A stretch of DNA of 26,945 nucleotides from a virus (IMGVR_UViG_3300022910_000011:1-26945); one strand, 5' to 3'; shown: positions 9,347 through 26,235, numbered from the stretch's first letter. Notes: a model not told the origin generated them from the sequence alone. Numbers and translations: made by a program.

Positions 9347-10899
9347 GACGGATCAGCATTGGTGCCGGACTGGTTGACCTGGGCCAGCACCAATTCCACC
9401 GCGGCGTTGGCCGACTCCTCGGACATCACGCCGAGCGCCACACCGCTGGCCATGTCCCGGACCGCGGTACCGATCTGGCCGAGCAGGGCAACCCGCTGGG
9501 CCAGGGTGGCAGCCTCGGCAGTGGAGTCCAGCCAGGCGGCCACCTGTTCCGGCACGTAACCGGCCTCCATGAGGGTCTGATCCACCGGCACGCCGCCGGC
9601 TTGCTTGGCGGCCACCACGGCCCAGTCGTCCACCGAGTCGGCCGAGGTGACCGGTGCCCACTGCACCTCGACCCGCGGCACGGTGACGCCGACGATGCCC
9701 AGGGCGAACCGCCATTGGTCCCGCAGCGGTGAGGATTGGAGCACCTGGAGCCACTCAATCGATTTGACCAGGGGCGCCTCCTCCCGCTTCAGGCTCTCTC
9801 CCGACGGGACGTCGCCGGAGGGGTCGAAATCGTGGAGCGGGGTGTTGGTGAGCTGGGCCAGGAGCCGGATGAACATCATCACCGGTTCGAGGAAGACCGC
9901 GGGATCGGCCGCTTCGAACTGGCCCACCTCCTTGGTCCCGGTGAACGTCTGCATCGTGCCGGGGCCGGTGCGCTGGCCGGATCCGACGCCGCCGGACTTG
10001 GTCATCCCACCAGGGCTGACCGCGCTCGCGTCGCCGTCCTCCACCCACTGGGGATCGTCGTTGTTCTCGTCCAGCACGGCGTCCGGCTCCAGAAGCTGGT
10101 ACCGCTGAGCGTGCCCCTGGCTGTCCGTGGTGGTGAGGAGCGTGATCAACTCCTTGTTGATGGCATTCTGCGCCCCGTACCCCTCCTTGTGCACGGGCAC
10201 GCCGTACGGCAGTGCGGTCCGGTGGTGGAACCAGGGGATCTCGCCGAAGTCGTGGGGGAGCTCCCAGTCCTGCTCATCGTCGGCGTACGGCACCCAGCCG
10301 GACTCCTCGGTCAGGGCCCCGGAGTCGGTGCTGATCCAGCGCTCCACCCTGTCGGCGTAGTAGAGATCGACGCGCCAGATTTCCTGTTGGCCGGCCACCT
10401 TCTCACACCAGCGGAAGATCAGGAACAGCTCACGTCGCTGGTTCTGGGGGTCGTACAGCATCCTGGCGTTCTTCGGGTTGTGGCAGGTGATCTCCACACC
10501 GCAGGCCACCAGTTCCGGCTTCAGCCCGGCGATGTCGCCTTCAGCGTCGATCTCCCACATCTGGACGTAGGCGTCACCGTAGGTGAACGTGTCCTTGAGC
10601 AGGCCGGGGTAGTGGATCGCCATCTCGTTGGCGTCCCAGATCTCCATCAGCCGATCGGTGGCGGCCTCGTTGTCCGGCACCTTGACCATGTCGATCTCGC
10701 ACCGGTCCAGCCGGGCGGTGATGGCGGTGCGGATCAGGTTGAACCGGTACCCGTCGCCGGTCTCGGCCAGTTTGTCCCGGACGGTGGCCGAGGCGAAGAT
10801 CTCCTCCACCTCACCGTTGGCGTACTTCTCGGCCTCCAGGTAGTCCGGGAGGGCGTCCTCCAGGGCCGTCCAGCCGGTGAGCAAGTCCTTGACGCTCAT
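9343..10899 (-). CDS. Portal protein, SPP1 gp6-like
   Basis: A 518-residue protein with typical portal features: an N-terminal region of about 100 residues, the PWFHHRTALPYG segment mid-protein, long helices in the C-terminal half (SGESLKREEAPLVKSIEWLQ) and an Ala-rich C-terminus. It forms the twelve-fold ring at one head vertex through which terminase pumps DNA. The ATG at 10899 overlaps the stop of the large terminase gene, and its own end overlaps the MuF-like gene, as in many siphophages. Confidence 0.85.
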   Translation of the reverse strand: MSVKDLLTGWTALEDALPDYLEAEKYANGEVEEIFASATVRDKLAETGDGYRFNLIRTAITARLDRCEIDMVKVPDNEAATDRLMEIWDANEMAIHYPGLLKDTFTYGDAYVQMWEIDAEGDIAGLKPELVACGVEITCHNPKNARMLYDPQNQRRELFLIFRWCEKVAGQQEIWRVDLYYADRVERWISTDSGALTEESGWVPYADDEQDWELPHDFGEIPWFHHRTALPYGVPVHKEGYGAQNAINKELITLLTTTDSQGHAQRYQLLEPDAVLDENNDDPQWVEDGDASAVSPGGMTKSGGVGSGQRTGPGTMQTFTGTKEVGQFEAADPAVFLEPVMMFIRLLAQLTNTPLHDFDPSGDVPSGESLKREEAPLVKSIEWLQVLQSSPLRDQWRFALGIVGVTVPRVEVQWAPVTSADSVDDWAVVAAKQAGGVPVDQTLMEAGYVPEQVAAWLDSTAEAATLAQRVALLGQIGTAVRDMASGVALGVMSEESANAAVELVLAQVNQSGTNADPS

Positions 10900-12467
10900 G
10901 GTGCTCCTACGTAGCTGGTGGTGGCCGTGGCGGCCTTGACGGTCTTGCCCTTGTTCAGGAAGTAGCGCACACCGGTCACGGCGGCGTCCACCACGTCATC
11001 GTAGGCCGCCCGGGGGAACCCCACGGCCTGCTCCTCCAGCGTGGCGAACCGTTCCACATGAAACACCCGGCCGCGCTGCCAGTGCTCCAGCTCAGTGGCG
11101 AACCGTACTTCCTTCGGCTCGATCGTGTGCACGGTCCGGACCGTCACGTTGGGAATGCCTGCGAACACGTCCTTCCAGAGATCTCCGCCCTGGTTGGTCT
11201 CGACCACGATCACCCTGATCTCTGGGAACCGGGCGAGAAGCTTGAGGACGTGATCCCGTAGGTGCTGGCCGGTGAGCTTGACGCCGGCCGAGTGCTTGAT
11301 CACGCAACCGGATGGGGACACCATTCGCGCGGGCTCACGGCCGACCGGTCGCGCTCGCAACTCGGGCATAAACCCAACGACGGCAAGGCCGGTGAAGTCG
11401 CTGGTTTTACGGCTGGTGACAGCAGGATCCACGGCGAGGATGGTGCGGGTGCAGTGCCGTCCTTCTGGCTCTCCATAACGGAAGTCCTCTCGCACCCAGT
11501 AGACGCCCTCACGGGCCATCGGGTCGTTGTCGTAGTTCTTGGCGTAGGAGCGCGTGTGTCTAATGGACTGGAGCCAGGCGGTCGGCCACTTCTGCGGCCA
11601 GATCGACACCTCGGTACCGTCGTCCAGAGTCCTCAGGGGCCGGTGGTGATGGGGCTTGACCTGGTTGTCCTGGATCCAGTCGGCCGTCTCAATGCCGTCG
11701 GCGGCCTTCACCAACTGGTGCATGATGGAGCCAGGCATGGTGACCGTGCCGACGAACACCACCCGGGCGTAGATGTTCAGCGGGAAGATGGCGTCCGTGA
11801 CGGTGCCGAGGCGTTTCTCCGCCTGGTCGGCCGAGTAGTTGGCCTCATCCGGTTCGATGTCGTCCAGGATGATCAGATCGGGCCGCTTGTCGCCCACTTT
11901 CATGCCGAGCACGGCGGAGTCGATCCCACGCGCGGCGAACACCCAGCCGTTGGCCTGGTGGAGCATCCCCGCCCGGTCTGCCACGGTGGTGCCGGCCCGG
12001 CGTCGTGCTGGTGCGCAGAGCTTCGGGTAGTCGTGCTGGAGCAGGGCGTTGGTCTCCAGCTCGCGCTTCAGCGTGCTCAGGTGGCTCTCGGCCTGGCTGG
12101 TGGCGTTGGCGAACGCCGCGGCGAACTTGCTGTGCCCATTGGCCGCGGCCCACACCGGCAGGATGAGGAACCACCAGGTGCTCTTGCCGCACTCGCGGGG
12201 GGCGATCTCCGCCGTCCGGTGCTCCATCGGGCCGGATACCGGCTCGGCCCAGGCCAGGGCCTGCGTGGCCCAGTCGAAGTGGGGCTGAGCCCAGGACATG
12301 GCGCCGTCCCGGTCTTTCAGGTGGTGGCCGAAGTAGATCACGGCGAAGGCCACCGGATCGGCGCCGAGCGCACGACGGATCGCCGCCTGGCTCTGGGCAG
12401 GCTGGAACACCAGATCAATGATCTCGTTGTCCAGCCGCCGGAACCAGGCGGCGTCCCATCGTGCCAT
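10896..12467 (-). CDS. terL: Terminase large subunit
   Basis: A 523-residue packaging motor. The ATPase part has Walker A PRECGKST near residues 90-97 and Walker B RPDLIILDD near 193-200. The RNase H-like nuclease part has acidic residues in ILAVDPAVT (about 342), VIVVETNQGG (about 417) and DDVVDAAVTG (about 487). It cuts and pumps phage DNA into the head through the portal. Start set at the ATG at 12467, which overlaps the stop of the last zinc microprotein gene (TGATG); the open frame upstream lies over that gene and is not needed. Confidence 0.9.
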   Translation of the reverse strand: MARWDAAWFRRLDNEIIDLVFQPAQSQAAIRRALGADPVAFAVIYFGHHLKDRDGAMSWAQPHFDWATQALAWAEPVSGPMEHRTAEIAPRECGKSTWWFLILPVWAAANGHSKFAAAFANATSQAESHLSTLKRELETNALLQHDYPKLCAPARRRAGTTVADRAGMLHQANGWVFAARGIDSAVLGMKVGDKRPDLIILDDIEPDEANYSADQAEKRLGTVTDAIFPLNIYARVVFVGTVTMPGSIMHQLVKAADGIETADWIQDNQVKPHHHRPLRTLDDGTEVSIWPQKWPTAWLQSIRHTRSYAKNYDNDPMAREGVYWVREDFRYGEPEGRHCTRTILAVDPAVTSRKTSDFTGLAVVGFMPELRARPVGREPARMVSPSGCVIKHSAGVKLTGQHLRDHVLKLLARFPEIRVIVVETNQGGDLWKDVFAGIPNVTVRTVHTIEPKEVRFATELEHWQRGRVFHVERFATLEEQAVGFPRAAYDDVVDAAVTGVRYFLNKGKTVKAATATTSYVGAP

Positions 12468-12562
12468 CAGTAGTTCTTCACCGCTCCGCAGGCGAGGCAC
12501 CGACCTGCGATCATCCGACGGCGGAAGCAGTTCGGGCACATCTCGAACATGTCCCCGAACAT
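12467..12562 (-). CDS. Zinc-ribbon microprotein, 31 aa (C4 type)
   Basis: A 31-codon gene with four cysteines spaced C9-x2-C12-x9-C22-x2-C25 (CPNC and CLAC), a compact zinc-ribbon pattern. The ATG at 12562 overlaps the stop of the preceding microgene by one base and its own stop overlaps the terL start by one base, so all are probably coupled in translation. It is the last of six tiny genes between the terminase genes. Function unknown; its place suggests a role in DNA recognition or cutting by the terminase. Confidence 0.65.
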   Translation of the reverse strand: MFGDMFEMCPNCFRRRMIAGRCLACGAVKNY

Positions 12563-12648
12563 CAGTGCTTCCGCAAAAGTCGGTGCAAGGCCAGGGCACC
12601 GGGGCGCATCCAGCTCCCGCATGTGGGGCATTGGACGTTCTTCTCCAT
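12562..12648 (-). CDS. C2H2-like zinc microprotein, 28 aa
   Basis: Begins MEKNVQCPTCGSWMRPGALA and carries C7-x2-C10-x11-H22-x5-H28, close to a classical C2H2 zinc finger. GGGAGG (plus-strand 12654-12659) lies 5 bases before this ATG and only 2 bases before another in-frame ATG at 12651, so 12648 is preferred. It overlaps its neighbours by one base at each end. Likely to bind zinc and perhaps nucleic acid or protein. Confidence 0.65.
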   Translation of the reverse strand: MEKNVQCPTCGSWMRPGALALHRLLRKH

Positions 12649-12719
12649 CATCGCCTCCCTAGGCATACGAGAAAGTGTTGTACGGACAGGGTGCTGTGAC
12701 CGCACTTCGGGCAGGTCAT
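12648..12719 (-). CDS. C2HC zinc microprotein, 23 aa
   Basis: One of the shortest genes here: C3-x2-C6-x8-H15-x3-C19, with the motif HFLVC near its end. The gene just upstream (12716-12799) has the related HWLVC motif, so the two look like a duplicated pair. The ATG at 12719 sits in an ATGA overlap with that gene. Being bracketed on both sides by overlaps with other cysteine-patterned frames makes a chance open frame unlikely. Confidence 0.6.
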   Translation of the reverse strand: MTCPKCGHSTLSVQHFLVCLGRR

Positions 12720-12799
12720 CGGGTAGAGCTGGGGCAGACCAGCCAATGCATCGGCCCCATCGGAAACTGGCACCTCGGGCAGATCCTTTTGCCGCTCAC
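12716..12799 (-). CDS. C2HC zinc microprotein, 27 aa
   Basis: Starts with GTG at 12799 in a GTGA overlap with the basic microprotein upstream. Pattern C7-x2-C10-x7-H18-x3-C22 (CPRC, then HWLVC). It appears paralogous to the next microprotein. The N-terminus (MSGKRI) and C-terminus (PSSTR) add a little positive charge. Zinc binding is a strong inference from spacing; biological role unknown. Confidence 0.6.
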   Translation of the reverse strand: MSGKRICPRCQFPMGPMHWLVCPSSTR

Positions 12800-12936
12800 C
12801 AGTTCTTCCCCCTCTTGACCGGGACCGATGCGTTCCGGCTGGAGCGTTCGGTGCGCTCGCGCTTGATCTTGGTACTGGGGAGGGCGATTTTCTTGCCCCG
12901 CTCACCCATCTTGGGGCGGTCCTTGCCCCAGCCCAT
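12796..12936 (-). CDS. Very basic 46-aa protein in the zinc microprotein run
   Basis: A Lys/Arg-rich peptide (MGWGKDRPKMGERGKKIALP at the start, KRGKNW at the end) with no cysteine, likely disordered until it binds nucleic acid or a partner. The ATG at 12936 overlaps the stop of the C2H2 gene by one base, and its stop overlaps the next gene's GTG. It is the only member of the run without a zinc motif, which suggests a nucleic-acid-binding helper. Confidence 0.6.
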   Translation of the reverse strand: MGWGKDRPKMGERGKKIALPSTKIKRERTERSSRNASVPVKRGKNW

Positions 12937-13043
12937 CAGCGATGCCCCTTGACCAGCTTGTGCGCGGCCAAGGCCGCCGCCGTGCCGAAGCGGCCCCCGC
13001 ACTGACCACAGACGTGTGGACTGGTGGGTGTCGATTGAGCCAT
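12936..13043 (-). CDS. Classical C2H2 zinc-finger microprotein, 35 aa
   Basis: A single finger with C12-x2-C15-x12-H28-x5-H34 and the standard hydrophobic core: Phe19 four residues after Cys15 and Leu25 three before His28. GGGGAGG four bases before the ATG at 13043 is a strong ribosome site, so this is probably where translation of the microprotein run begins. Single C2H2 fingers of this kind may bind DNA or proteins. A palindrome and possible promoter lie just upstream (13057-13097). Confidence 0.7.
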   Translation of the reverse strand: MAQSTPTSPHVCGQCGGRFGTAAALAAHKLVKGHR

Positions 13044-13056
13044 GCTGCCTCCCCGT

Positions 13057-13097
13057 TCTCGGTTACTGAAGGCTTCAGGCTACACCCTTGAGCAGGG
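13057..13097 (-). promoter_or_regulatory. Possible operator and promoter before the zinc microproteins
   Basis: The 64-bp gap between the small-terminase stop and the first microgene holds an inverted repeat (ACCCT-TGAGC-AGGGT, 13083-13097 on the plus strand) next to a TAGCCT -10-like hexamer on the minus strand preceded by GTG. I cannot find a good -35. A hairpin 25901-25919 shares the central TTGAGCA on its minus strand. Either a regulated promoter or a weak terminator hairpin. Confidence 0.25.
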
Positions 13098-13106
13098 TTA
13101 CACACC

Positions 13107-13580
13107 TTACTCCGGGGTATCGGTGGCCATCCGGGCCAGCGCCTCAGCCGCGGCGGCCTCGGCCACACGGTCGGCCTGCTCACTCACCGTGACGTCGGCC
13201 TTGACCGGGGCGTCCAGGCCAAGCACCTTAGAAGCACGCTCGCCGATCTTCAGAATGCGGTCGGCGGCGGCCATCCGGACCGAGTAGTCCAGTATCGGCC
13301 GACCCTGCTCATCGAACATCGGCCGGCCGTTGCTGTACGCCTGGGTGGGCGCAGCGTCCATGATCGCGGCCATCTCCTGGCCGAGAACGTCCAGGCTATC
13401 CAGGTACTTGGCCCGGCGCTCGGCCAGATCCTCCTCCGGGATACTCGCCTGAACTGCCCGGATGATCTCGCTCACCCTGGTCTGAGCGATACCGTGCTGC
13501 TGGGCCAGCGCCTCTTGCGTGGTGCCCAGCACCCAGGCACGATAGATCGCCCCGTTACGGCCTTCCTTCGGCCTACTCAC
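13107..13580 (-). CDS. terS: Probable terminase small subunit
   Basis: A 157-residue protein with an N-terminal helix-turn-helix (TTQEALAQQHGIAQTRVSEI, residues about 20-40), a middle helical part and an Ala-rich C-terminal helix. Small terminases recognise the packaging site and hand DNA to TerL, and this gene lies upstream of terL as usual, separated from it only by the microproteins. Starts with GTG at 13580, overlapping the upstream gene by 8 bases (GTGAGTAG). The alternative is another HTH regulator. Confidence 0.6.
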   Translation of the reverse strand: MSRPKEGRNGAIYRAWVLGTTQEALAQQHGIAQTRVSEIIRAVQASIPEEDLAERRAKYLDSLDVLGQEMAAIMDAAPTQAYSNGRPMFDEQGRPILDYSVRMAAADRILKIGERASKVLGLDAPVKADVTVSEQADRVAEAAAAEALARMATDTPE

Positions 13581-14256: not shown

Positions 14257-14679
14257 CTACTCGTCCAGCAGATCGAGGAGCTCGGAATCCTGACTGGCCC
14301 ACCCTGGCCGTACCCTGCCCTCACCGAGCCACGCCTGACGCGACGGTGGATCGATGAGAGCCAGACCAAGCCGGATCAAACCCTCCGGATCGTCGCGAAA
14401 GTGGCCGACGATGTTGTTGCAGGTGTTGCACAGGAGCATCCGCACCTCACCGGTCCGGTGGTTGTGATCCACCGACAGCCGGCGGGCCTTGCCGGTGGCC
14501 CGCCGGCACCCCCAGCACCGGCCGAGCTGGAACTCCAGCAGGAGTCGGTACATCCGGACGGTGATCTTGTAGGTGCGCTCCACGTACGCCTCGTGAGCGG
14601 CCTCAGACGCCTCTGTGCGGGCCTGGCGGGGTTTCCGGGGCCCAGCGGGCGTCTGAGAGCGTCCTCGGCCGTTCAGCAC
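14257..14679 (-). CDS. Endonuclease VII-like HNH nuclease, copy 2
   Basis: A 140-residue protein with a recombination endonuclease VII core: CWGC (zinc), VDHNHRTGEVRMLLCNTCNN (catalytic Asp-His plus second zinc pair) and a following helix. Enzymes of this family cut branched DNA such as Holliday junctions, clearing replication and recombination intermediates before packaging. The N-terminus is basic. It starts with GTG at 14679, overlapping the upstream, related gene by 7 bases. Confidence 0.8.
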   Translation of the reverse strand: MLNGRGRSQTPAGPRKPRQARTEASEAAHEAYVERTYKITVRMYRLLLEFQLGRCWGCRRATGKARRLSVDHNHRTGEVRMLLCNTCNNIVGHFRDDPEGLIRLGLALIDPPSRQAWLGEGRVRPGWASQDSELLDLLDE

Positions 14680-15134
14680 TTGGTCACCACATAGCGGTAG
14701 AGCGCCAGGATTCGGTCTTCACTGTCCTTGAGAAGGCCAAGCGCGGTGTTGCAACTGGTACACAAGATCCCCCGTACGTCTCCAGTTTCGTGATCATGGT
14801 CGACATGGTCTGGCGGACCGCCGCACGATTCGCACTCGGTGACGGCGTCGATCAACTCCAGCTCGTCCTTGCCCAGGCTGTACCGGTTGGCCCGACGCAC
14901 GTGCCGGCCGCACATCCGATGCGCTACCGCCTTCTTGATGCAACCATCAATCGTGCACTTGGTCCCGATCAGTTCGGCCCGAACAGTAGGCGGCAAGGTG
15001 CCAGCCTTCTTTCTCGACTGGTAGTGACGACTACACAGGTCACGGGCCAGGGGCCGCCGAGTGCACCCGTCCTCCAAGCACTCGGCGGCGGCCCACAACC
15101 TACGTCGTTCGAACGGCTTCTCTGGTTCGTCCAT
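14673..15134 (-). CDS. Endonuclease VII-like HNH nuclease, copy 1
   Basis: A 153-residue protein. The C-terminal half has the endonuclease VII core: CESCGG, VDHDHETGDVRGILCTSCNT and LGLLKDSE. The N-terminal half holds two more cysteine/histidine clusters (CLEDGC...CSRHY and CTIDGC...CGRHV), which look like a duplicated small zinc module used for DNA binding. It starts at ATG 15134, 22 bases after the polymerase stop, and overlaps the second nuclease gene. Confidence 0.8.
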   Translation of the reverse strand: MDEPEKPFERRRLWAAAECLEDGCTRRPLARDLCSRHYQSRKKAGTLPPTVRAELIGTKCTIDGCIKKAVAHRMCGRHVRRANRYSLGKDELELIDAVTECESCGGPPDHVDHDHETGDVRGILCTSCNTALGLLKDSEDRILALYRYVVTKC

Positions 15135-19615: not shown

Positions 19616-19837
19616 CTATTCCGCGAAAGGGTCGTCCGGAACGGGCGTCACCATCGCCTCGATCTCCGAACGCTTGAACCGTACCCACTGCATCCCGCCG
19701 ATCTTGTAGCGGGTGATCCGGTGCTCGTTCGCCCACCGGTCAATGGTGCGCTCGTTGACGCCGACCAGATCGGCGGCCGCCGATCGAGTGATCATGTCGT
19801 GCTCTACCTGATCGTTCCGGTTTATCTCGTGGTCCAC
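19616..19837 (-). CDS. Excisionase/MerR-type helix-turn-helix protein, 73 aa
   Basis: A small DNA-binding protein. AAADLVGVNERTIDRWANEH forms the helix-turn-helix, followed by the ITRYKIGGMQWVRFKRSEIE wing typical of excisionase-family (winged HTH) proteins. Start at GTG 19837, with AGCAGGAG upstream. It is the gene next to the divergent promoters, so it may control the early/late switch or be an accessory excisionase. No integrase is in the window, so I prefer a regulator. Confidence 0.7.
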   Translation of the reverse strand: MDHEINRNDQVEHDMITRSAAADLVGVNERTIDRWANEHRITRYKIGGMQWVRFKRSEIEAMVTPVPDDPFAE

Positions 19838-19874
19838 GGGGGTGCTCCTGCTCTCGATGCCGCTGGTCAGTGCC

Positions 19875-19903
19875 AAGGTACAGGCCCGTAGGAGGATAGA
19901 CAA
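19875..19903 (-). promoter_or_regulatory. Promoter for the minus-strand HTH gene
   Basis: On the minus strand, TTGTCT (19898-19903) is followed after 17 bases by TACCTT (19875-19880), about 38 bases ahead of the GTG start. It lies back to back with the plus-strand promoter. Confidence 0.5.
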
Positions 19904-22760: not shown

Positions 22761-22781
22761 GGTGTACGTAGATAGACACCC
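22758..22781 (+). promoter_or_regulatory. -10-like element and inverted repeat before the transporter gene
   Basis: The helicase stop codon TAG is the start of TAGGGT (22758-22763), preceded by GTG. GGGTGT at 22760-22765 pairs with ACACCC at 22776-22781. A matching GTGTAAGGT occurs before the nuclease start at 23951. It could be a promoter with operator or a weak terminator; the -35 is poor. Confidence 0.3.
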
Positions 22782-22800
22782 ATCGACAGAGGAGCGCACC

Positions 22801-23349
22801 GTGAAACGCTATACCTGGATCGTCGGCCTGGCCCTGGTGGCCTCAGTCGCACTCGCCAACTACGCCACCGCCCGCTACCACTTCGTCCCGGTGGGGTTCG
22901 GCCAGCAGGCCACCGCCGGCACGTTCTTCGCGGGCCTCTGCCTGGCCCTGCGGGACGGTCTCCAGGACCTTGGCGGCCGATGGGCCGTAGGTGCCGCCAT
23001 CCTTGCGGGTGGACTGGTCTCGGTCCTGACGTCAAATCCGACGCTGGCCGTCGCGTCCGGTGCCGCTTTTGTGGTGAGTGAAGTGCTGGATGCGGCAGTT
23101 TACACCCCGCTGAAAAATCGAGCGTCGGTGGGCTCCCCTCGGTGGGCTGGAGCCGTGACGGCCTCCAACGTGGTCGGCACGCTGGCCGATACCGTTGTGT
23201 TCCTGGCGCTGGCGTTCGGCTGGGCGGCGATCCTCCCGGCCCTGCTCGGCCAGCTGATCGGCAAGGCGTACCCCACCGTCGTCTACCTGCTCGGAGGGTG
23301 GCTCCGGCGTGCTGTACATGGCGAACCCGTCGAACTGGCGCGTCCGTGA
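22801..23349 (+). CDS. VUT/YhhQ-family queuosine-precursor transporter
   Basis: A 182-residue membrane protein matching the VUT family (YhhQ-type), which imports preQ0/preQ1 7-deazaguanine bases. It has about five to six hydrophobic segments (starting WIVGLALVASVALANYATAR and WAVGAAILAGGLVSVL) and the family signatures TAGTFFAGLCLALRDGLQDLGG, DAAVYTPLKNR and NVVGTLADTVVFLALAFGW. It starts with GTG at 22801 behind GGAG with 6-base spacing. Its 3' end overlaps the DpdA-like gene by about 40 bases. In a phage this placement fits supply of a precursor for DNA modification. Confidence 0.85.
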   Translation: MKRYTWIVGLALVASVALANYATARYHFVPVGFGQQATAGTFFAGLCLALRDGLQDLGGRWAVGAAILAGGLVSVLTSNPTLAVASGAAFVVSEVLDAAVYTPLKNRASVGSPRWAGAVTASNVVGTLADTVVFLALAFGWAAILPALLGQLIGKAYPTVVYLLGGWLRRAVHGEPVELARP

Positions 23350-25900
23350 GGCTCAGGCCGCAGGCTCGATAGGCGTCATCCACACGCCAGCTCAGCACAA
23401 CTCCCAGGTATTCGGCTCCATCCGGTGCTTCGACAACGGGTGCTTCGGCAAGGGGTACCCCGGGGACGCCGCCTGGTGGCTCTGGCTCCAAGCGTCGATA
23501 GCAGTATCGAAAGAGGCGAAAGGATCGAATCTGTTCGCAGTGGCTCCGGATGTTGTAGCAGACGCCCGGGCCACTGCGGCTCGATCAGCACCGTGGCTCC
23601 AGCCGATCCGCAGCCTCGGTATCCGGGCCGCGTTCGTTGCCCAGGACGGCATGGAGTACGAGCCGGTGGACTGGGACTCGTTCGACGCCCTGTTCATCGG
23701 CGGATCGACAGAGTGGAAGCTGGGCCCGGAGGCCCGGGCGTTCAGCTCCGAGGCCAAGGCGCGCGGCAAGTGGCTCCACATGGGCCGGGTGAACACCTGG
23801 CGGAGGTACGAGATCGCCGAGAGTTTCGGGTGCGACTCGGTGGACGGCACCACCATCCTGTTCGGGCCGTCCAAGAACCTGCCGATCGTCCTCGGCTGGG
23901 GTGTAAGGTCTGTCAAGGAAGTACAGAGCACGACACAACAGGAGGCGCACGTGCCCAGTTTCGCTAGTACGGACGGACCCAAGCAGGCCGTCCCGATCAA
24001 GAACCACCGCTACCAGATCCCCCGGTACCCGATCGACGGCCCGATCATCCAGGCCACGCCCGGTACCGGAATGCTGGTCCCCTGGACCCGCGTCTCTACC
24101 ATCCTCGACACCCACGAGGACAAGGAGGGGATATTCAAGTGGACCAAGCGGCTGGTGGTGAAGGGCCTCGGCGCCCGGGAGGACCTGTACGCGCTGGCCG
24201 CCGCCGCCAGGCTGGAGGACAAGGCGGGCCTGCTGAAGATCGCTGACCAGGCGTTCGACTACGCCAAGGGCCAGGCGTCCTCCAACCTCGGCACCGCTCT
24301 GCATGGCTTCCTGGAGCGGTGGGTGGAGGGTGACAAGGACCTCGTCATCCCCACTCAGTGGAAAGGCGACGTGGCCGCGGTGATGGCGGCGTTCCAGGAC
24401 GCCAACATCCGCCTGCGCCCGGACCTTCAGGAGATGGTCGTCGTCCGGCCCGACCTGAAGGACGGCGACGCCGGCGGTCTGGCCGGACGGCTGGACCTGG
24501 TGGTCGAGATGCTCAACCCCGAGACCGGGGAGTGGGAGCTGATCCTGGCCGACTACAAGACTGGATCGGACCCGTTGCTCTACGGCGCCTGGAAGATCCA
24601 GCAGCAACTCGGTCTGTACGGTACGGCCTGGGCGATCTGGGACGGCACGCACTGGCGGCCGATGCCGACAATCCGCCGGGACAAGATCCTGATGGTCCAC
24701 GTGCTCCCGGGCCAGGCCAGCGTTCAGATTCACATCGGCGACGTCGACCCGGTGGAGCTGGAGGCCGACCTTCAGGCCGCCTATCGGACCCGCCGCCGCC
24801 GCAAGGAGGCCAAGAAAGCCTGGCGTCCGCTGGTCACGGTGGAGGACGGGACGATCGTCGGTCCGCAGTCCGACACCTACGATGGTGATGACTCTACCGT
24901 GGTGACGACGGCGAACACCGAGCCGGGCGACGTCCAGCATCCGACGTTCGCGGTCGGACCAACCAAGCCGATCACCGAGCTGGAGCAGAGCTGGCGTGAC
25001 AGCTCCACACCGGAGCAGGTGGCTCGGGCGGAGGCGACCGTGGCCCGGGTAGCCGCCGAGTCGAACCCGAACCTGGACGGTGACGAGACCGCCGACAATG
25101 GCCACACCCACGCGGCCGAGCTGGCGCCGCTGGCCGGTCCGGGTGAGCGCGGATGCGGCGTCTGCGGCCGGAAGGGCCACCGTCGGGGGTCGCCCAAATG
25201 CCTCGGCGAGGCTGATCCCCGGTTGGTGAGCCGGAACACGGCCATGCGTCTCTCTGGTGAATCCGATGAGGACTACGCCCGAGGTGCGGCGGAGCGTGGC
25301 GAACTGATCGAACGAGAAGCCAACGGTGGCCCGACCGACGCCGGGCACTGCCGGTGCTCGATTCGTTCCGCCGGCTGGAAGGCTCCAGCAGACGGCGTCG
25401 GCCCGTGGGTGTGCGGTGACTGCGGCCTACCGTCCATGATCATTGTGCCGCTGGCGGTGCAGACCGGAGAGCAGACGGCCGAGCCGATTTCCGACGAGGA
25501 TCGGTTCCGCCTGGCGGACGCCGAACGGGCCCAGCGCGAGCAGGACGATCCGCGTAACCACGCGTTCGAGGCAGGCCCGGGATCGTCCGGCATGGTCTGC
25601 ACCCGGATGGTGATGAGGGGCGGGGGTGGCGATGAGTGCGGCGCCACTCCGGCCGCGCACGAGCCATCCGATGAGGAGGTTCTGGCCGCCGAGGCGGAGG
25701 AGCCGGACCCGTTCGACGAGGACGGTTCGGACACCCTGGGAGGTCTTCCTCTCCCGACCTGGATGGACAGAATCAACTACGCCGCCGACAAGGCCGAGCT
25801 CCGGTCGATCCGGGCCGAGGCGATGAAGGTCGGGGAATGGACCCAAGAACTCACTCGGGCCGGCCTGGAGCGCATCAAGGTCCTGGCCCAGCAGAGCTAG
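23309..25900 (+). CDS. DpdA-like DNA transglycosylase reading in frame into a Cas4-like nuclease
   Basis: The open frame covers 863 residues. The first about 198 resemble phage DpdA, a tRNA-guanine transglycosylase relative that swaps guanine in DNA for a 7-deazaguanine: FDNGCFG near 39 (first catalytic Asp), APDVVADA near 78, VAQDG near 110, FIGGSTEWKLG near 129, and GCDSVDGT near 174 (candidate nucleophile Asp). The rest is the nuclease described at 23951. The junction at 23900-23950 has noncoding-like codons, a -10-like element and a perfect ribosome site, so two genes are likely. One base fewer in the GGGG run near 23898-23901 would end DpdA at TAA 23904-23906. Start GTG 23309 is preferred (GGAGG 11 bases upstream); ATG 23318 is possible. 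Confidence 0.6.
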   Translation: MLYMANPSNWRVREAQAAGSIGVIHTPAQHNSQVFGSIRCFDNGCFGKGYPGDAAWWLWLQASIAVSKEAKGSNLFAVAPDVVADARATAARSAPWLQPIRSLGIRAAFVAQDGMEYEPVDWDSFDALFIGGSTEWKLGPEARAFSSEAKARGKWLHMGRVNTWRRYEIAESFGCDSVDGTTILFGPSKNLPIVLGWGVRSVKEVQSTTQQEAHVPSFASTDGPKQAVPIKNHRYQIPRYPIDGPIIQATPGTGMLVPWTRVSTILDTHEDKEGIFKWTKRLVVKGLGAREDLYALAAAARLEDKAGLLKIADQAFDYAKGQASSNLGTALHGFLERWVEGDKDLVIPTQWKGDVAAVMAAFQDANIRLRPDLQEMVVVRPDLKDGDAGGLAGRLDLVVEMLNPETGEWELILADYKTGSDPLLYGAWKIQQQLGLYGTAWAIWDGTHWRPMPTIRRDKILMVHVLPGQASVQIHIGDVDPVELEADLQAAYRTRRRRKEAKKAWRPLVTVEDGTIVGPQSDTYDGDDSTVVTTANTEPGDVQHPTFAVGPTKPITELEQSWRDSSTPEQVARAEATVARVAAESNPNLDGDETADNGHTHAAELAPLAGPGERGCGVCGRKGHRRGSPKCLGEADPRLVSRNTAMRLSGESDEDYARGAAERGELIEREANGGPTDAGHCRCSIRSAGWKAPADGVGPWVCGDCGLPSMIIVPLAVQTGEQTAEPISDEDRFRLADAERAQREQDDPRNHAFEAGPGSSGMVCTRMVMRGGGGDECGATPAAHEPSDEEVLAAEAEEPDPFDEDGSDTLGGLPLPTWMDRINYAADKAELRSIRAEAMKVGEWTQELTRAGLERIKVLAQQS
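23904..23950 (+). promoter_or_regulatory. -10-like element and ribosome site before the nuclease
   Basis: TAAGGT at 23904-23909, preceded by GTG as in the element at 22758, then AGGAGG at 23940-23945 five bases before GTG 23951. Codons in this stretch (GTA, AGG, TCT, GAA, ACA, CAA) are unlike those of the flanking genes, as expected for an intergenic region. Confidence 0.45.
23951..25900 (+). CDS. Cas4/RecB-like exonuclease with zinc-binding tail
   Basis: Reading from the GTG at 23951 gives 649 residues. The PD-(D/E)xK core shows GTALHGFLERW near 114-124 (His), GRLDLVV near 179-185 (Asp), LADYKTGS near 200-207 (Asp and Lys) and QLGLYG near 219-224, the ordered set of RecB/Cas4-type exonucleases. 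The C-terminal part carries cysteine groups CGVCGRKGHRRGSPKC near 401-416, HCRC with CGDC near 466-492 and a third Cys/His group near 549-563, probably zinc sites; Cas4 proteins usually hold an iron-sulphur cluster instead. It likely processes DNA ends for recombination with the helicase. A phage Cas4-like protein alone does not imply CRISPR. Confidence 0.75.
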   Translation: MPSFASTDGPKQAVPIKNHRYQIPRYPIDGPIIQATPGTGMLVPWTRVSTILDTHEDKEGIFKWTKRLVVKGLGAREDLYALAAAARLEDKAGLLKIADQAFDYAKGQASSNLGTALHGFLERWVEGDKDLVIPTQWKGDVAAVMAAFQDANIRLRPDLQEMVVVRPDLKDGDAGGLAGRLDLVVEMLNPETGEWELILADYKTGSDPLLYGAWKIQQQLGLYGTAWAIWDGTHWRPMPTIRRDKILMVHVLPGQASVQIHIGDVDPVELEADLQAAYRTRRRRKEAKKAWRPLVTVEDGTIVGPQSDTYDGDDSTVVTTANTEPGDVQHPTFAVGPTKPITELEQSWRDSSTPEQVARAEATVARVAAESNPNLDGDETADNGHTHAAELAPLAGPGERGCGVCGRKGHRRGSPKCLGEADPRLVSRNTAMRLSGESDEDYARGAAERGELIEREANGGPTDAGHCRCSIRSAGWKAPADGVGPWVCGDCGLPSMIIVPLAVQTGEQTAEPISDEDRFRLADAERAQREQDDPRNHAFEAGPGSSGMVCTRMVMRGGGGDECGATPAAHEPSDEEVLAAEAEEPDPFDEDGSDTLGGLPLPTWMDRINYAADKAELRSIRAEAMKVGEWTQELTRAGLERIKVLAQQS

Positions 25901-26162: not shown

Positions 26163-26231
26163 TCTCCGATAGCTCAACTGGTGAGCTTGACCTGGTGATC
26201 AGGTGGTGCGGGTTCGAATCCCGCTCGGAGA
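26163..26231 (+). tRNA. tRNA-like gene with aberrant anticodon arm
   Basis: TCTCCGA and TCGGAGA make a perfect 7-bp acceptor stem. The D-arm is GCTC/GAGC, and GCGGG-TTCGAAT-CCCGC is a perfect T-arm. Only 21 bases separate the D-stem and T-stem instead of 22-23. The best anticodon fold is a stem ACCTG/CAGGT with a 5-base loop; opening it to seven bases gives GGTGATC, which lacks the conserved U33. I therefore assign no amino acid. CCA is not encoded. Probably a nonfunctional or specialised tRNA. Confidence 0.55.
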
Positions 26232-26235
26232 GCGA

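Follow-up and report, generated by a model that had tools for sequence, protein, structure and literature searches.

Small single-domain proteins with predicted zinc-binding motifs have already been described in viruses, with many encoded per genome in HF1-like haloviruses, so that zinc microproteins as a kind are not new (PMC7230728). In Haloferax, C(P)XCG zinc-finger microproteins of under 70-100 aa are mostly of unknown function (PMC11241148; PMC6562870), and zinc binding is absent in several of those predicted in haloarchaea (PMC11241148). In Halobacterium salinarum, the zinc microprotein Brz and the co-transcribed basic protein Brb jointly tune transcription (PMC3184054). A freestanding single-finger protein of an archaeal virus, AFV1p06, binds DNA (PMC3541406), and lambda Orf73, a small protein of the DksA family, reprograms RNA polymerase (PMC9239242).

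The window analyzed here is the whole of a 26,945-nucleotide (26.9 kb) IMG/VR virus contig with 67% GC, derived from a soil phage. Its minus strand carries, in order, two endonuclease VII genes, a gene for an HTH protein, the small terminase gene terS, an array of very short genes, the large terminase gene terL, the portal gene, and head genes. The identity of terL (10896..12467, minus strand) is secure (PHROG 38, E 2.5e-65), and that of terS (13107..13580, minus strand) rests on its position, its HTH plus helical oligomerisation region, a weak homology (30% identity) to the annotated terminase small subunit of Streptomyces phage KimJongPhill, and a fold comparison in which the small terminase of phage G20c ranked first (Foldseek E 0.05, probability 0.96). 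The two endonuclease VII-type genes adjoin each other upstream of terS at 14257-15134 (minus strand), and close relatives carry the first of them at 93-94% identity. An excisionase/MerR-like protein encoded at 19616-19882 (minus strand) suggests that the phage may be temperate. A search of genomes for its host by TerL of prophages returned a single 44% match on an archaeal MAG contig. Elsewhere, the plus strand contains a tRNA-like gene (26163-26233), the anticodon loop of which was unreadable by ARAGORN, and, at 22762-25900, a gene for a VUT_1 (YhhQ-like) transporter and, after it, an ORF of 863 aa. The first 197 aa of this ORF match PHROG 15826 and are fused to a RecB-like exonuclease; this N-terminal part resembles, to our reading, a TGT/DpdA-type deazaguanine enzyme, and it is possibly an acquired DNA modification, since in relative L005 (L094) the exonuclease is present but most of this part is missing.

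As the preliminary description had it, six overlapping ORFs of 23-46 codons lie between terS and terL (13043-12467), five with zinc-type patterns and one encoding a very basic product; all are on the minus strand. A stop/start overlap of 1 or 4 bases is found at every junction, that between m6 and terL included, with the sequences TGATG, GTGA, ATGA, ATGA, TGATG, and TGATG in order from m1/m2 to m6/terL. The first gene, m1 (12936..13043), encodes a 35-aa protein (MAQSTPTSPHVCGQCGGRFGTAAALAAHKLVKGHR) with a classical C2H2 finger (C-x2-C-x12-H-x5-H), and m2 (12796..12936; 1-nt overlap with m1) encodes the very basic product, which has 46 aa and no Cys. The GTG-initiated m3 (12716..12799; 4-nt overlap with m2) specifies a 27-aa protein (VSGKRICPRCQFPMGPMHWLVCPSSTR) with the pattern C-x2-C-x7-HWLVC (CPRC..HWLVC) and the C-terminus HWLVCPSSTR. 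Similarly, the 23-aa product of m4 (MTCPKCGHSTLSVQHFLVCLGRR; 12648..12719; 4-nt overlap with m3) has the pattern C-x2-C-x8-HFLVC (CPKC..HFLVC). The 29-aa product of m5 (MMEKNVQCPTCGSWMRPGALALHRLLRKH; 12562..12651; 4-nt overlap with m4) is C2H2-like (C-x2-C-x11-H-x5-H), and the 31-aa product of m6 (MFGDMFEMCPNCFRRRMIAGRCLACGAVKNY; 12467..12562; 1-nt overlap with m5 and with terL) is a C4 ribbon (CPNC..CLAC).

Chains of at least six short coupled ORFs are not rare in this GC-rich sequence and occurred in 55 of 1,200 dinucleotide-shuffled strands (about 5%). Zinc-type ORFs numbered five in the observed chain versus a maximum of two in the 1,200 shuffled strands, where the outcomes were 0, 1, or 2 and 2 was reached twice; the zinc pattern was picked after the array had been seen, which weakens this number but hardly the contrast. 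Codon phase provides an independent test: GC content at codon positions 1/2/3 of the chain is 0.53/0.55/0.82 (GC3 vs GC1+2, p = 7e-11), only 2 of the 729 phase combinations of the six segments, the observed one included, reach the observed GC3, and the best GC3 phase switches exactly at the predicted borders of the microgenes. Single frames through the region on either strand have non-coding codon usage (-39 to -69 bits, vs -1.3 for the chain). An antisense 163-aa ORF on the plus strand was rejected because its codon usage is non-coding, and programmed frameshifting was rejected for lack of slippery sites in the array. Under the same criteria, no closely spaced pair of zinc micro-ORFs was found in 1.79 Mb of viral DNA. 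This DNA was not chosen for the feature; most of it came from TerL loci and the records containing them, and loci that overlap were counted in. Shine-Dalgarno pairing is strong in the case of m1 and m3, of intermediate quality before m2 and m5, and weak before m6; m4, which also has poor codon usage, has none and must therefore depend on coupling. The coding signal and the coupling of the array are thus features of the sequence itself, and the six microgenes are almost certainly real phage genes, of a kind that standard annotation tends to miss, which bears out the earlier remark that they are too short for most gene callers.

The array occupies an exchangeable slot (12468..13079, minus strand) that is sharply bounded at either end and whose DNA is without homology in the four closest relatives (L002, L003, L004, and L005), in which terS is 72-88% and TerL 86-94% identical and the DNA of the two genes is 73-89% identical to that of the window. 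Homology to these relatives ends at 13079-13080, 28 bases past terS, and resumes at 12458-12470, at the start of terL. In place of the array, all four carry an unrelated cassette for two helical proteins plus another small one, the latter with a membrane-type N-terminus in L003-L005 (L003 and L004 read identically in this region), and the window has no trace of that cassette. Other relatives hold yet other contents: the slot of L011 is empty, with terS and terL almost directly adjacent, that of L007 encodes a DUF3310 protein, and that of L022 encodes one or more zinc-type proteins. Basic microproteins of PHROG 4974 are encoded in the slots of L018 and L019, with similar ones in L016, L017, and L021, and in L016 the basic microprotein is accompanied by a CPxC..H..H finger protein. 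The recurrence of such proteins suggests that basic microproteins in the terS-terL slot may be a wider theme, and m2 may be a functional analogue of the PHROG 4974 type. A zinc micro-ORF lies within 1.5 kb upstream of TerL in 9 of 86 non-redundant loci; a search of relatives for conserved microgenes between the terminase genes, which had been proposed as a check, found the array itself in 0 of these 86, and the four closest relatives have no part of it. Judged from these comparisons, the array is very probably an exchangeable accessory cassette, and its microgenes would be dispensable accessory genes and not terminase subunits.

Composite protein scans, run on IMG/VR and on 84,980 prokaryote genomes, found no homologue of the array as a whole at the sensitivity of the searches and in collections that may lack near-identical records. 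Searched singly against 50,697 phage records, the microproteins gave nothing convincing except m3-like microgenes of Streptomyces phages; m2 had no homologue in these records, and m3 gave nothing convincing against 28 records of relatives. When IMG/VR was scanned with a DNA pattern for CPxC microgenes in tandem, the matches listed were mostly due to chance or to large proteins, and chain analysis of these yielded a few pairs and one set of three coupled zinc micro-ORFs, in another virus (L162:6734-7178; 112 kb contig IMGVR_UViG_3300018432_000002). A conserved overlapping set of three genes, encoding a CxxC protein, a 39-aa protein, and a further CxxC protein, was also observed at L126:5273-5669, L183:3221-3617, and L204:616-1012. 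The product of m4 matches PHROG 17181 (E 6e-4), and a pattern search with m3 and m4 gave five matches of which only L244 was useful. The regulator-like L244 protein, with a match to PHROG 1123 and a weak one to a transcription-regulator PHROG, has an N-terminal finger with 52% identity to m4 over 21 residues, part of this identity being by selection because the protein was found with a pattern built from m3 and m4.

The m3-like microgenes came from a weak match (E 1) in Streptomyces phage Kradal, at a place between genes 2 and 1 for which no gene is annotated. There, a 35-codon frame (L325:1286-1393; MK620894) overlaps gene 2 at its start by GTGA and runs at its end into gene 1, which encodes a CPRC zinc-type protein; the GTGA start overlap and the end overlapping a further zinc-type microgene, features of the Kradal group (Kradal, Kela, and Frankenweenie), resemble the array. 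With the Kradal peptide as query, this gene was also found in six more large Streptomyces phages. An unannotated CPxC-HW microgene of 35-40 codons overlaps gene 1 at the genome end in L325, L331, L332, and L333; the microgene is kept in Frankenweenie, Kela, and JustBecause, and the copy in Satis (L330) has a stop after the His. A diverged CPAC-HW form of 34-35 codons adjoins thyX in the 68-69 kb Streptomyces phages phiRKBJ001 (L327:1201-1305), Wentworth (L328:1207-1311), and Dryad (L329:1201-1308); by inspection it is also present in Gibson and PHTowN, in gaps of L334 and L335, and it was not found in Yara. These microgenes (34-40 codons) are unannotated in every record for which the gene table was read, their Cys and His positions are kept except in Satis, and their dN/dS is about 0.2-0.35 (about 0.2 in the thyX-adjoining form), a pattern of substitution indicating that they are under purifying selection in Streptomyces phages.

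The phages that carry this family include the closest cultured relatives of the window TerL. Its CPxC and HW motifs recur in m3, which shares the CPxC-x7-8-HW core of the family (GK-x-[IV]CPxC...GP-x-HW). However, m3 lacks the aromatic C-terminus of the family and its Cys 9 residues after the His, the third Cys of m3 being 4 residues after it, and the Streptomyces genes occur singly, some near the genome end and others next to thyX, rather than in a terS-terL slot. With a profile of the family, m3 was the best non-member among 83,594 frames, at an E of 0.021 that is weak and rises to 0.3 when the Kradal sequence found with m3 is left out. The relation of m3 to the family is therefore suggestive only.

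The product of m1 follows the classical C2H2 pattern C-x2-4-C-x12-H-x3-5-H with its hydrophobic core positions (VCGQCGGRFGTAAALAAHKLVKGH). AlphaFold2 without an alignment predicts a beta-beta-alpha finger with pLDDT above 90 over the core, sequence matches to C2H2 proteins of the PDB reach 6e-16, and C2H2 fingers make up most of the best PDB matches in Foldseek, at an E of only about 1 because the chain is so short. Pfam scores of the microgenes are below the gathering cut-offs (for m1, 16.1 bits vs 25.2 for PF00096). A common CPxC...H core can be aligned across the products of m3, m4, and m5, which may have arisen by duplication of a single small finger but are too short for proof. The five zinc sites of the array differ in type.

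Set beside the known systems, the array shares with the halovirus and haloarchaeal microproteins a small, single-domain, predicted zinc protein, and its products (23-46 aa) are below the 70-aa bound used for C(P)XCG microproteins. However, the haloarchaeal proteins usually have two C(P)XCG motifs, whereas m1, m3, m4, and m5 have one CxxC pair each and only m6 has two, just one of them followed by G; the hosts are also different, and the window products are still smaller, come from one contiguous overlapping array, and are of mixed zinc types. AFV1p06 resembles m1 as a virus-encoded freestanding single finger with the classical C2H2 fold but differs in its extensions, in Glu as the fourth ligand, and in being encoded by a single gene. 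The claim that no system like this array had been described holds for the array itself, although zinc microproteins are known from haloviruses as well as haloarchaea (PMC7230728; PMC11241148), and a related-looking family exists in Streptomyces phages. In open-licence papers, no description was found of the array, of its placement between terS and terL, or of the CPxC-HW microgenes. The novelty lies in the tight overlap of genes for several zinc types in one array, in the location of this array in an exchangeable slot between terS and terL, and in the CPxC-HW microgenes that cultured Streptomyces phages conserve but their annotation lacks.

Directly 3' of terS, a conserved element (13077..13105, minus strand) with the dyad ACCCTG/GGGTGTAG occurs once per genome in the window and its close relatives. 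In the relatives it reads TTGTAC-N17-TAGCGT or TAGTGT with an internal dyad and is promoter-like; in the window it reads GTGTGT-N17-TAGCCT, with a poor -35 box, and the leader downstream of it has a strong ACGGGGAG Shine-Dalgarno at its end, before m1. A general promoter scan did not report this element. On our reading it would serve as the promoter of the transcript into terL, and a packaging or operator site is a possible alternative. TACACCC repeats were considered as a multi-site operator and rejected, as they are not repeated likewise in the relatives.

The best explanation overall, to which we give about an even chance, is that the coupled zinc microproteins and their basic partner are trans-acting regulators encoded by an exchangeable cassette. 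The six microgenes would form one cargo cassette heading the terL transcript behind the promoter-like element and would be translated by stop/start-coupled reinitiation, so that the small proteins would probably be made in similar amounts. Five of them would each fold around one zinc ion, as their Cys and His patterns suggest, and m2 would be a basic, probably disordered, nucleic-acid-binding partner. Acting in trans while the phage infects its host, the small zinc proteins would adjust transcription of either genome, or a different host function, by binding to DNA, RNA, or RNA polymerase, and the place of the array in a transcript leading to late genes suits a late role more than an early takeover. 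Such regulators are favoured by the finger prediction for m1 and by a basic partner in m2 that resembles the Brz-Brb pair, in which the genes for a zinc microprotein and its small basic partner likewise stand together; m1 and m2 overlap and would be co-transcribed, whereas Brz-Brb is an archaeal chromosomal regulator of bop with two genes, not six, and is likened here by gene pairing (PMC3184054; PMC2253796). The model also draws on the selection acting on the m3-like microgenes, the m4-like finger of the regulator-like L244 protein, the basic microprotein and finger protein together in the L016 slot, and the precedents of AFV1p06 and lambda Orf73; counting against it are the mixed zinc types, the haloarchaeal C(P)XCG proteins that bind no zinc, the low Pfam scores, the lack of a Shine-Dalgarno and the poor codon usage of m4, and the weakness of the m3 match. 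That the microproteins are directed at nucleic acid or polymerase in particular is a tentative reading, and the earlier suggestion of host- or nucleic-acid-directed microproteins is plausible. It is a doubtful further reading that the coupled single-finger proteins form a split reader acting jointly on one nucleic-acid target or partner, with specificity changed by swaps of whole cassettes at a fixed slot and with related microgenes as a widespread unannotated layer of actinobacteriophage genomes.

The main rival, unlikely though worth weighing, is that the microproteins serve counter-defence or host takeover by binding a host protein (a nuclease, polymerase, or defence effector) and not nucleic acid, the cassette being traded because hosts differ. 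The different cargo of the slot in close relatives would fit this, very small and varied proteins suit inhibitor-type proteins, and small phage proteins often act in phage-host interactions (PMC11323111). Against it are the classical nucleic-acid-type finger of m1 and the strongly basic m2, along with the absence of any match to the PADLOC defence library, in which inhibitors are not listed anyway.

HNH endonucleases are encoded beside terminase genes, and the array is like them in consisting of small genes that adjoin a terminase. The fingers might accordingly be accessory packaging subunits that help TerS/TerL to recognise or cut the packaging site, for which the translational coupling to terL and the endonuclease VII genes upstream of terS could be cited. 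However, none of the six matches an HNH or other nuclease family in Pfam and PHROG profile searches, the array is not kept in relatives, and terS and terL almost adjoin in L011. The lack of any such gene beside TerL proteins of 86-94% identity makes the array a replaceable cassette, so its position beside terL does not imply a packaging function, and the other slot contents of relatives indicate that a terminase of this type can package DNA without the microgenes. The terminase-modulating role first proposed is thus not supported by the close relatives, and packaging is an improbable function. Still less probable is a role in cis only, in which the short coupled frames set terL translation and the peptides do nothing: coupling links all the frames in series and joins them to terL, and m4 depends on it, but it would not need five independent zinc patterns, and terL has a good Shine-Dalgarno of its own. 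An artefact, whether chance frames or a multi-finger gene broken by sequencing errors, is very hard to credit even for a single metagenome contig with a chain length that shuffling can reproduce, since the zinc content, GC3 phase, and codon usage speak against it and indels would not give six in-register stop/start overlaps with Shine-Dalgarno sites and no slippery heptamer.

If the regulator model is right, part of phage coding capacity would be hidden below the usual gene-length limits, in the form of functional zinc proteins of 23-40 codons, overlapping arrays, and a slot for cassette exchange. The CPxC-HW microgenes of cultured Streptomyces phages make this idea testable now in common laboratory strains, and the terS-terL slot would be a natural place for finding more accessory cargo.
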